DNA of 53,237 nucleotides. Origin: Nodularia spumigena CCY9414 (lineage in GTDB: Bacteria; Cyanobacteriota; Cyanobacteriia; Cyanobacteriales; Nostocaceae). The DNA lies in contig NZ_CP007203.1 of assembly GCF_000340565.2 (NCBI RefSeq), positions 2,152,909 to 2,206,145 on the forward strand. The letters are read 5' to 3'. Made by a program: the position numbers and the translations under genes. Below are positions 46,206 through 53,237 of the stretch, piece by piece; the first letter of the stretch is position 1; each line of letters begins with the position of its first letter. Under the pieces are notes generated by a model. It was not told where the DNA came from and made no database searches. It saw only the letters and a list, made by a program, of their open reading frames with translations.

Positions 46206-46559
<354 letters not shown>

Positions 46560-49069: not shown

Positions 49070-50923
49070 ATGAAAAAACTTATATTATTGTGCTTGTTTC
49101 TCATCGGGCTGGGGGCTGCTGTATTTGGTTTCCTGAATTTTCAGGGTTTAGCAGCTAAAGGCGAGTTTGAGACGATTTTGCTAGATTTTCGCCAAGATAT
49201 TCCCGCAGAGGTAATAGAGCAGAATTTACAAGCGATCGCTCAAGAATACAACGTCACACCCCGATTAGACAATCAATTTTCAGCGTCAGATCATGTGTAT
49301 ATTATTGAAGGCGATCGCCAGCGACTGAAAAAACTGAAAAAATCTCCATTCGCCCAATTTACACAATTAATCGAGCCAAATTACATATATAGAAAGATTC
49401 CTCTACCAGCCGCAGCAACTTGGTTTGAAGATATTTTACCATCTCCAGATCATCAAGCAAATCCCACATTAATTGGCCCTAACGACCAATTTTACAGCAA
49501 ACAGTGGAACCTGCACAACATCGGCATGGAAGGCGCGTGGACTCAAACCAAAGGCAGTGGCGTAACAGTAGCTGTAATTGACACTGGCATAACTCGCGTC
49601 CGTGACTTGGTAGACACGAAATTTGTGAAAGGGTATGATTTTGTGAGCGATCGCGAAGAAGCCACAGACGATAACGGACACGGTACTCACGTCGCCGGCA
49701 CCATAGCCCAAGCCACCAATAACACTTATGGTGTAGCCGGCATTGCCTACGAAGCCAGTCTCATGCCCTTAAAAGTTCTCAGCGCCTACGGTGGCGGAAC
49801 CGTCGCCGACATAGCCGAAGCAATTAAATTTGCTGCTGACAACGGTGCAGACGTAATTAATATGAGCTTAGGTGGCGGTGGTGAAAGCCAATTAATGAAA
49901 CAAGCCATCGACTACGCCCACAACAAAGGCGTAACCATTGTAGCCGCAGCCGGCAACGAAAATGCCAATGGCGCAAGTTATCCCGCACGTTACCCCCACG
50001 TAATTGGCGTTTCTGCATTTGGTCCAGACGGAGAAAAAGCCGCTTATTCCAACTTTGGCGCAGGCGTAGATATTTCCGCACCTGGTGGTAGTGACGCTGG
50101 TGCAATTCTCCAAGAAACCATCGACCCCGACAACAACGGCGAAGGAGTATTTCTCGCACTCCAGGGAACAAGCATGGCTTCCCCCCACGTTGCAGGTGTA
50201 GCCGCATTAATTAAAGCTTCTGGAGTCACTGAACCAGACGAAATATTAAAAGTCCTCAAGCAGTCAGCAAGAATTATCCAAGATGATAGCTTTAACTATT
50301 ATGGCGCTGGACAACTTAACGCCGAAGCCGCAGTCAAACTCGCCACACAAGGACAAATCAGCTTCCAAGACTTCTTCCGGTGGTTAAGAGATAACGGTTA
50401 TCTCAACCCTCGTTTTTGGATTGATGGCGGTGCAGTAGCATTAGTACCTAAACTACTCATGGTATTGGGTTCCTATCTTCTAGCTTGGTTTTTGCGGGTT
50501 TACTTCCCCTTCGCCTGGAGTTGGTCTTTATCCAGTGGCTTAATAGCTGGTAGTTCTGGTTTATTCTTCCTCCGGGGATTATATATCTTTGACCTCCCCC
50601 AATGGCCATTCCGAGTTTTAGGCAGTTCCATTCCCGAACTAGGAAACACCCTTCAAGGAACTAACGCCTTAAATCCCATATTTGCCAGCGTGTTAATTCC
50701 CGTAGTTTTAATAGCATTATTCTTAGGACATCCTAGCTGGAAATGGTTTGCCATTGGTTCGTCCCTGGGCTTCGCGGCATTTTTAACAGTTAGTGCCATT
50801 TACGACCCAGCAGTGTGGGGTTTAGGAAGTAGCTACCTAGCGCGGAGTTTCCTCATCATCAACGCCATACTCTGTTATGGACTAGCCCGTTTAGCATTAA
50901 AAACCGAAACTCAAACAACATAA
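49070..50923 (+). CDS. Subtilisin-like S8 serine protease with C-terminal membrane domain
   Basis: A 617-residue protease. There is a signal or anchor helix (about residues 3-22), a propeptide-like segment to about 140, then the S8 catalytic domain: Asp in VAVIDTGI (about 172), His in [13 protein letters not shown] (about 205), oxyanion Asn in [11 protein letters not shown] (about 300) and Ser in [16 protein letters not shown] (about 370). Residues 450-617 hold about five hydrophobic helices, which is unusual for a secreted subtilase, so the protease domain is probably tethered outside the cytoplasmic membrane. The substrate is unknown. Confidence 0.92.
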
Positions 50924-51683: not shown

Positions 51684-52514
51684 GAGGCTATGTATATATA
51701 AGCTTTAGGGAGACTACCACATCAGTCAAAAACCAACAATAAAATTCTAGAAAAAATTAATGCTTTGAGCAAACATCCGAGGAAATACTCCGTAGGTAAG
51801 CGATCGCAATTATTTATATAATCAATCAAAGGCTGTAAATTTTTATTGCATTGGGTGATCAAAGCGGCGCTCTAGGGCGGGAAAATTCGCCGGAAAGCCT
51901 GTGAGCAAATGATCCCCCGGCTTTTTAAAAGATCAAAGCTATCTAACAAAAATCTAGCTATTTAACTAAAAATTATGATAGGATAGATAAAACTACAATC
52001 AATACATCTACAAAATGTAGTTTTGCATAATATCTAGGCAATATATTAGGCAAATCTCATAAGTAATGCAAAAATGCAATACTGATTTGCTACAAGGCTA
52101 ATAGTGTTAGGGTGAAGTAACCTAGAAAGTTTGATAAACCAACGTCTGCTAGGTAAGGGATGCAAAAGCTTACTTGGTGTGATAACTTTGGAACACTTGG
52201 CAAAAACCAATTATTAAAAAACTAATAACTTAAATCCTCTGTTACTTGTTTAACAGTCTTTAACTGCGAATATCAGGTAAAACTGTAAAAACGGTAAGCT
52301 CTCAAGCTCTTGATTTCCATTTGTCCAGTTCTATTTATTTATTGGTAGTCTTGTACAGATTTTCAGAAATGGTTGCAATCTAGGTTTTGTCAATAAACTC
52401 TGACAATATTAGGAATAAAAAACTATCTACAGTAGAACATTTTCATAATCTTGCGTTATAATGTTTGCCTAAGCAACAACAAATGAGCTAAGGCTATCGG
52501 CAGAAGACTTTCTC
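51684..52514. other. Long non-coding region left of the sRNA array
   Basis: No protein gene is supported over 830 bases. A structured segment at about 51865-51926 ends in a terminator-like hairpin. The remainder is AT-rich; I see no further intact array copies here, though a degenerate one may exist. Confidence 0.45.
51889..51926 (+). terminator. Terminator-like hairpin of unknown transcript
   Basis: GCCGG and CCGGC pair around a 23-base loop and are followed by TTTTT. Just upstream CGGCG and CGCCG (51865-51892) can also pair, so a small structured RNA ending here is possible. Confidence 0.4.
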
Positions 52515-52571
52515 AAAAAACTCCATCGAATCTTTGCCGGCAAAGGGAGTTAGTTATCAGGGTGCATCTAC
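52515..52571 (-). ncRNA. nsiR1: NsiR1-like sRNA, copy A (most divergent)
   Basis: The leftmost array copy, read leftward. The core GATGCACCCTGATAACTAAC is shared with other copies. The terminator differs: the arms AACTCC/GGAGTT enclose a perfect CTTTGCCGGCAAAG hairpin before TTTTTT. The 5' end is estimated from the spacing to TCCGGA at 52603-52608. Confidence 0.62.
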
Positions 52572-52602
52572 TAATTAAATGTTCTCAGGTTGAGTCCAGC
52601 CC

Positions 52603-52608
52603 TCCGGA
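52603..52608 (-). promoter_or_regulatory. TCCGGA box of copy A
   Basis: An exact TCCGGA placed about 30-35 bases before the estimated start, as in heterocyst-related (DIF+) promoters of Nostoc sp. PCC 7120. Confidence 0.6.
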
Positions 52609-52648
52609 TAAATCTTTCCCAAGATTTGTTATTATTCTGTTTTAATAG

Positions 52649-52705
52649 AAAAAACCCCTAGTGGTGGCAGCCAGCCAGGGGAGTTAGTTATCAGTGTGTA
52701 TCTAC
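52649..52705 (-). ncRNA. nsiR1: NsiR1-like sRNA, copy B
   Basis: Read leftward: the core with CTGATAACTAACTCCCC, then a hairpin CCCCTGGCTGGC/GCCACCACTAGGGG region and TTTTTT. It differs from copies E and F at several positions. Confidence 0.7.
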
Positions 52706-52736
52706 CAATCAACTTTTCTAGGATCAAATACCATGT

Positions 52737-52742
52737 TCCGGA
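52737..52742 (-). promoter_or_regulatory. TCCGGA box of copy B
   Basis: An exact TCCGGA, 134 bases from the box of copy A. Confidence 0.62.
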
Positions 52743-52782
52743 TAAAATTGTCACAAATGGGAATGTTGGTTCTACCCAACAT

Positions 52783-52839
52783 AAAAAAATCCCTCACTGG
52801 TGGCAGTCTAGGGGAGTTAATTATCAGGACGCATTTATC
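52783..52839 (-). ncRNA. nsiR1: NsiR1-like sRNA, copy C
   Basis: Read leftward: CCTGATAATTAACTCCCC, a loop, AGGGA and TTTTTTT. The 5' part has diverged (GATAAATGCGTCC). Its promoter box has one change (TCTGGA read on the plus strand, 52859-52864), so it may be weak. Confidence 0.65.
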
Positions 52840-52858
52840 AAGCATCAGTTAAGTTTGT

Positions 52859-52864
52859 TCTGGA
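52859..52864 (-). promoter_or_regulatory. Degenerate TCCGGA box of copy C
   Basis: Plus-strand TCTGGA (minus TCCAGA), one mismatch from TCCGGA, 122 bases from the copy B box. Confidence 0.4.
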
Positions 52865-52906
52865 CAAAATTATCATTAATGATATGATGGTTGCTGTTTA
52901 CAGAAG

Positions 52907-52966
52907 AAAAAAATTCCCCAATGAGTGTTAGTCAGGTAGGGGAATTAATTATCAGGTTGCATCTAC
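52907..52966 (-). ncRNA. nsiR1: NsiR1-like sRNA, copy D
   Basis: A 60-base unit read leftward from GTAGATGCAACCTGATAATT to the CCCC/GGGG hairpin and TTTTTTT. An AT-rich candidate -10 (GATTAAATT) lies just upstream. Confidence 0.75.
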
Positions 52967-52997
52967 CAATTTAATCTTCGCGCTGCAACTACCATTC

Positions 52998-53003
52998 TCC
53001 GGA
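52998..53003 (-). promoter_or_regulatory. TCCGGA box of copy D
   Basis: An exact TCCGGA followed leftward by GAATGGTAGTTGC, about 24 bases from the candidate -10. Confidence 0.65.
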
Positions 53004-53036
53004 GAAACCTATCATCATCAATAGTGTAAATTGCAT

Positions 53037-53096
53037 AAAAAAATCCCCCAACGGGTGTTAGCCAGTCAGGGGAGTTAGTTATCAGGGTGCATCTAC
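53037..53096 (-). ncRNA. nsiR1: NsiR1-like sRNA, copy E (complete)
   Basis: A 60-base unit, identical to copy F through core and terminator. Read leftward: GTAGATGCACCCTGATAACT, the terminator arms TCCCC and GGGGGA around TGACTGGCTAACACCCGTT, then TTTTTTT. The promoter has TCCGGA at 53128-53133 and TAAATT at 53098-53103, 24 bases apart. This matches the size (about 60 nt), tandem organisation and promoter of NsiR1 in Nostoc sp. PCC 7120. Confidence 0.8.
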
Positions 53097-53127
53097 TAAT
53101 TTAATCTTCGTGGCACATCTACCATTC

Positions 53128-53133
53128 TCCGGA
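53128..53133 (-). promoter_or_regulatory. TCCGGA box of copy E
   Basis: An exact TCCGGA, 130 bases from the copy D box. The flanking TTCTCCGGA and CACATCTACCA are shared with copy D in part. Confidence 0.68.
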
Positions 53134-53160
53134 CAAAATTTCAGAAACTGTGAATTGCAT

Positions 53161-53220
53161 AAAAAAATCCCCCAACGGGTGTTAGCCAGTCAGGGGAGTT
53201 AGTTATCAGGGTGCATCTAC
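53161..53220 (-). ncRNA. nsiR1: NsiR1-like sRNA, copy F (promoter cut by window end)
   Basis: The core and terminator are identical to copy E over 60 bases. The window ends 17 bases upstream of the estimated 5' end, so its TCCGGA box is outside. Confidence 0.76.
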
Positions 53221-53237
53221 TAATTTAATCTTCCTGG

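Follow-up and report, generated by a model that had tools for sequence, protein, structure and literature searches.

The window, as we call the whole stretch of 53,237 nucleotides of Nodularia spumigena CCY9414 DNA that was analysed, carries six NsiR1 genes (Rfam RF02399) at its right end. These are direct repeats on the minus strand, are read leftward and span 52514-53222; the RNA 5' ends, taken as Rfam position 1 on that strand, lie at 52573, 52707, 52840, 52968, 53098 and 53222, with successive spacings of 134, 133, 128, 130 and 124 nt. At least six direct repeats had been predicted from the DNA alone, and they were found again both by Rfam and by direct reading; the spacing of 122-139 that was predicted with them is closer to the box-to-box distances, the 5' ends being 124-134 apart. 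As was also foreseen, each of the six copies is terminated by a minus-strand G+C hairpin followed by a run of T. The Rfam search proposed in the original prediction returned RF02399, with four of the six copies above the gathering score of 39 bits and the other two slightly under it, at 35 and 32.9 bits. E-values for the four range from 2.7e-12 to 4.5e-6 in a scan of the whole window; those of the two sub-threshold copies, from a search of 1238 bases, are 7.5e-5 and 2.3e-4.

Counted from hetF, which lies beyond the window, these are copies 7 to 12, and they and their promoter boxes are all on the minus strand. Copies 7 (53161-53222) and 8 (53037-53098) each score 71.6 bits and are identical in sequence to each other and to the hetF-proximal copy. 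Copy 8 has a TCCGGA box of the DIF1 type at -35 (53128-53133). The promoter of copy 7 is cut off by the window edge, as had been noted, and its box is found in the genome as an exact TCCGGA at -35. Copy 9 (52907-52968, 46.5 bits) is divergent, with TCCGGA at -35 (52998-53003). Copy 10 (52783-52840, 32.9 bits) is degenerate; it has no box at -35, and a degenerate, displaced TCCAGA, read on the minus strand, lies at about -24 (52859-52864). Copy 11 (52647-52707, 55.2 bits) again has TCCGGA at -35 (52737-52742), as does the last, copy 12 (52514-52573, 35 bits; box 52603-52608), in which the 5' part is intact and the terminator hairpin is altered. The original prediction of a box at the same place in five of the six copies holds for four of the five whose promoter is inside the window, these being exact at -35, and fails for copy 10, whose promoter is probably weak or silent, judging from its sequence. 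When single sequences were folded, copies 10, 11 and 12 were not clearly better than shuffled versions (51, 43 and 123 of 200 shuffles, respectively, were as good), while for the remaining three copies 19, 10 and 10 of 200 shuffles folded equally well. Elsewhere in the window, a gene for a P-II nitrogen regulatory protein (46206-46544, minus strand; Pfam P-II, 113 bits) lies about 6 kb to the left of the array, and a subtilase-family protein with a C-terminal DUF5942 domain is encoded at 49070-50923 on the plus strand.

Extension to the right in the organism's own genome, a check suggested at the outset, revealed six further copies and then hetF, giving an array of 12. The gene that follows the array lies on the plus strand, opposite to the array, and encodes a protein of 845 aa that is identified as HetF by NCBIfam (1456.7 bits, cut-off 1200). 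Ten of the 12 copies reach the gathering score, their 5' ends are 124-134 nt apart, and TCCGGA is exact at -35 in all except copy 10. The Rfam family, copy number, orientation, neighbouring hetF and -35 box all agree with the NsiR1 array near hetF that had been proposed. This array is already known: 12 short repeats upstream of hetF (nsp22100) are in print for N. spumigena CCY9414, according to the accessible part of PMC3610870. For hetR and ntcA the start sites given there precede the start codon by 109 and 45 nt; they map here 108 and 44 nt ahead of an in-frame ATG, which in hetR is codon 20 of the translated reading frame.

Conservation of the array was followed across 81 HetF loci, consisting of the best 80 of 135 relatives and the own locus. 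By profile search, 77 of the 81 loci, own included, have copies, 487 in total and all opposite to hetF. The covariance model agrees with this, its 278 and 229 matches at HetF loci being minus strand in every case. The profile search found no NsiR1 copy at the other four loci (L041, L051, L057 and L064); each of these is HetF-like, with 4.5 kb upstream free of NsiR1 and a matched frame that starts with GAA, and they may be paralogues or may start elsewhere. Boxes were scored between -40 and -30 in 432 copies, those beginning at model position 1 with 45 nt of upstream sequence: an exact TCCGGA was present in 351 and one with a single mismatch in 58, compared to 0 and 11 for shuffled upstream stretches. 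RF02399 was above cut-off in all 118 sampled genomes of the family, and in a control set of 14 genomes its sole match, in Escherichia coli, was under cut-off.

Besides the 12 array copies, RF02399 exceeds its cut-off at one other place in the own genome (52.1 bits), a thirteenth gene located at G000:C1:1958566-1958616:+ (L088 5567-5617 (+)), around 247 kb from the array. This solitary NsiR1-like gene lies between cobM (TIGR01465, 334 bits) and lgt (TIGR00544, 264 bits), is head-to-head with cobM and has TTCCGGAT upstream. It matches the same model as the array genes and has the same 5' element, the same box and a terminator of its own, features which place it in the NsiR1 family; it is a single gene at cobM and not part of a tandem array at hetF. 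A 25-nt pattern from its 5' part, allowing up to three mismatches, occurs exactly once per genome in 118/118 family genomes sampled, without any mismatch in 116 of them, and the reversed control pattern occurs in none. All 118 solitary genes share a contig with cobM and are head-to-head with it; the distance to the matched end of cobM is 102-571 nt, with a median of 129, and is within 300 nt for 117 of them. In the best 30 of the 118 loci by cobM similarity, own included, TTCCGGAT is present within 45 nt upstream in every case. The 5' part of the cobM-linked gene is nearly invariant across the sampled family.

A structural alignment was made of 28 cobM-type copies, picked for diversity and all having cobM and/or lgt as a neighbour. 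Positions 2-13 are invariant and the terminator helix is 94% paired. Over the whole structure 13 cells were changed on both sides versus 4.6 in shuffles (0/500 as high), and the number of pairs with a change on both sides, 4 versus 2.7 in shuffles, was not unusual (103/500). The 5' mini-hairpin never varies in these copies, so that covariation does not test it. We found no report of a cobM-linked NsiR1 gene in the open-access literature, which does not establish its absence from print. Identity with NsiR8 or NsiR9 was rejected, as these are too long, at 171 and 122 nt in the accessible part of PMC4734099, versus about 50 nt; the other entries in Table 1 of that source are given as positions only and could not be linked to cobM. 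The array itself is of low novelty, and it is the cobM-linked sibling that is worth following.

At the level of the order, RF02399 was detected in 198 of 291 genomes at E 0.001 and was over cut-off in 181. The solitary pattern was present in 109 of the 291, 80 of these outside the own family. Twenty of the 80 outside loci were fetched; they are strong matches from nine families and not a random sample. Nineteen adjoin cobM and/or lgt (cobM 17/20, lgt 14/20) and the twentieth, L187, adjoins hetF; of the 19, 18 have an exact TCCGGA and L184 has TCCTGA. At one locus, from an f12 genome (L180 1641-2225 (+)), cobM and lgt are separated by four NsiR1-like copies in tandem, perhaps an independent amplification at a second site.

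In six genomes of g95 (family f18) the cobM copy is the sole RF02399 match, and the box is TGCGGA instead of TCCGGA. Another f18 genome, G282, has beside cobM a more divergent RNA with TTCCGGAT, whose score is under the gathering threshold. No HetR match at E 1e-10 was obtained in any of the 13 f18 genomes tried, and HetR was found in 22 of the 44 genomes of the same search; three of the six g95 genomes are less than 90% complete, while G161 and G311 are 100% and 99% complete. HetR is required for heterocysts and, since it was undetected, the six g95 genomes likely make none. The HetP family had been tried as a heterocyst marker, but it was found in 15 of 43 genomes tried, 13 outside the own family, and was replaced by HetR. 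Among 19 cobM loci fetched in one set, the RNA was present at seven (the six g95 genomes and G282) and was not found at 12, allowing up to 4 mismatches in 19, these being from three g132 genomes and G134 (f18), three f8 genomes, G185, G140, G148, G188 and G122. Since it was not found at these 12, the loss of the cobM-type RNA, or its spread, may have happened on more than one occasion. A related RNA, below the gathering score, is present elsewhere in the g132 and f8 genomes. At L133-L138 and L140-L142 (f8, f30 and f18-g132) a related RNA has AGTAGATGCACCCTGATGA and a terminator; TCCGGA is missing from the 42-45 nt upstream, and neither cobM nor lgt nor hetF is matched in the 3 kb of sequence covered.

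We conclude that the window very probably holds one half of the hetF-linked NsiR1 array of N. spumigena CCY9414, an array of 12 tandem genes of around 60 nt opposite to hetF whose RNAs would act in trans only. The usual unit has a DIF1-type promoter of its own with TCCGGA at -35; the 5' segment is conserved (UGGUAGAUGCACCCUGAU) and is predicted to hold a small GGU/ACC hairpin, and the unit ends in an intrinsic terminator that it does not share with its neighbours. In Nostoc sp. PCC 7120 the NsiR1 genes have individual DIF1 promoters and show HetR-dependent expression early in heterocyst development, NsiR1.1 is antisense to the 5' UTR of hetF and NsiR1.4 pairs at the start codon of alr3234 (accessible parts of PMC9045159 and PMC8406250). 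By analogy, transcription in N. spumigena would begin early in cells becoming heterocysts under the control of HetR, and would yield many RNAs that pair with mRNAs such as those of hetF and the hetP-like alr3234, lowering their translation. The window genes, copy 10 excepted, carry the sequence features for expression of the Nostoc 7120 type. They lie in the half of the array that is remote from hetF, which none of them overlaps, so they can act only in trans. For the array as a whole, the published hetF start site is downstream of the proximal copy, which is itself of the array type, and for this reason we propose that all copies act in trans and that CCY9414 has no dedicated hetF antisense isoform. 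The cobM-adjacent gene is a member of the same family as the array. The array is a well-studied developmental sRNA locus that helps to decide which cells become nitrogen-fixing heterocysts.

Candidate targets were sought with RNAduplex in 28 comparisons of seven target stretches with four RNAs. No defensible site was found in the start regions of hetF, two hetP-family genes, hetR, lgt and cobM. For array copy 4 against the two hetP-family genes, 110 and 81 of 200 shuffles were as good; leaving the cobM leader aside, the lowest values were those of copy 12 (5/200) and the solitary RNA (8/200) with L120, a hetP-family gene of the N. spumigena genome, and of the solitary RNA with hetR (11/200). 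The 200-nt cobM leader scored strongly because it contains the antisense strand of the solitary RNA.

An element in the hetF leader also bears upon pairing. The element, CAGGATGCATCTAAGG, lies at about -90 of hetF (L004 2472-2487) and recurs with no more than four mismatches in 65/81 HetF loci. In N. spumigena it matches the complement of NsiR1 nucleotides 4-16 in 12 of the 13 positions, and at least 11 pairs, including G-U, can be formed at 60/81 loci versus 2/81 shuffled leaders, although the loci are related and these are not 60 independent events. The published N. spumigena hetF start site is just downstream of the element, so in this organism the pairing site would fall outside that transcript, and a promoter spacer is an equally good reading. 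We prefer to see the element as a promoter spacer, a pairing site or both. That it is a decayed extra NsiR1 copy is disfavoured by its conservation in so many loci.

A wider proposal, which we advance tentatively and at somewhat less than even chances, is that the NsiR1 family predates HetR-controlled heterocysts. The ancestor would have been a solitary gene flanked by cobM (precorrin-4 methyltransferase) and lgt (prolipoprotein diacylglyceryl transferase), with a near-invariant 5' segment and a TTCCGGAT-type promoter, and the hetF array would be its amplified and recruited derivative. The shared 5' segment would serve as a seed to which the hetF leader is complementary; any copy, including that at cobM, could then target hetF in trans if the transcript starts far enough upstream. 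The presence of the cobM sibling throughout the sampled family and in genomes where HetR was undetected would date the origin of the family before heterocysts, and as a single-copy gene the sibling is tractable by a one-gene deletion.

The foremost alternative to action in trans only is that the array works exactly as in Nostoc 7120, with a proximal NsiR1.1 antisense to a long hetF 5' UTR that blocks translation in cis. The position of the proximal copy (L004 2324-2385, 5' end 2385) would suit this; it is 177 nt before the hetF start codon, and the nearest copy is 170-195 nt from hetF at 60/81 HetF loci, own included. Further, hetF of Nostoc 7120 is transcribed from -256, a position within nsiR1.2 (accessible part of PMC8406250). 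However, the published N. spumigena table, as far as that source (PMC3610870) is accessible, lists a single start site for hetF, 2206991F. This corresponds to L004 2492, from where it is 70 nt to the hetF start codon; the 5' end of the proximal copy lies 107 nt upstream of this site, so no NsiR1 copy is antisense to the hetF mRNA from that start. The antisense overlap known from Nostoc is therefore not supported in N. spumigena; a second, unlisted start site upstream would restore it.

The sequence of the proximal copy also argues against a block in cis. Over 62 nt it is identical to four other copies in this genome and one base different from three more. The comparison covered the 51 loci at which four or more copies are nearly full-length (beginning at model position 1 or 2 and reaching at least 50) and the proximal copy lies 150-260 nt from hetF; that of L004 is a perfect match to another copy over the 52 nt compared, whereas in the other 50/50 loci the proximal copy is distinct, with a best identity of 0.88 or less. 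Within the genus, the proximal copy is distinct at L191 and L192 (L192 and L008, Nodularia sp. LCM1.Bin15, give identical copies and are not independent), and degenerate at L190, where the 40 nt inspected contain no TCCGGA. It seems that array-type sequence has replaced a dedicated proximal copy in CCY9414; the promoter side still resembles that of L191. Alternatively, an error in the draft assembly is a possible source of the array-type proximal copy, the array sequence containing one N. A divergent proximal copy antisense to the hetF 5' UTR, a trait that belongs to the Nostoc 7120 locus rather than to the Rfam family, was thus not seen here, and we consider cis repression of the Nostoc kind unlikely in this strain. 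Under the preferred reading, in which all copies act in trans, N. spumigena would apparently lack a distinct hetF antisense isoform and so would offer a natural test of the need for cis repression in patterning.

It could also be argued that most copies are inert products of tandem duplication, with one or two active promoters and no function for copy number. Copies 10 and 12 do fall under the Rfam cut-off, the former having no box at -35, and the number of RF02399 matches varies within the genus (4, 7, 13, 15 and 19 in five sampled genomes). Against this, the exact -35 box is kept in 11/12 own copies and 409 of the 432 scored copies at HetF loci have it with at most one mismatch, while all 12 Nostoc 7120 copies are activated (accessible part of PMC8406250). 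Such inertness is therefore very improbable. Repeats arising by chance are ruled out by the Rfam E-values and the box statistics.

The array of N. spumigena compares closely with that of Nostoc 7120, as far as the sources on the latter are accessible: both have 12 tandem copies of around 60 nt opposite to hetF, with individual promoters bearing a DIF1 motif, and in both the central copies are alike and the outer copies divergent. The two differ in that the N. spumigena proximal copy is identical to four others, and in the listed hetF start, at -70 versus -256. Limnospira indica PCC 8005, a cyanobacterium that forms no heterocysts, has an NsiR1-like RNA of 57 nt, RNA162 (accessible part of PMC8400943); the likeness lies in there being an NsiR1-like RNA outside the heterocyst formers, and does not imply kinship with the cobM copy. 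The array published for CCY9414 itself, in the accessible part of PMC3610870, is the same locus as that described here, to which the present analysis adds the cobM-linked sibling and the anatomy of the individual copies.
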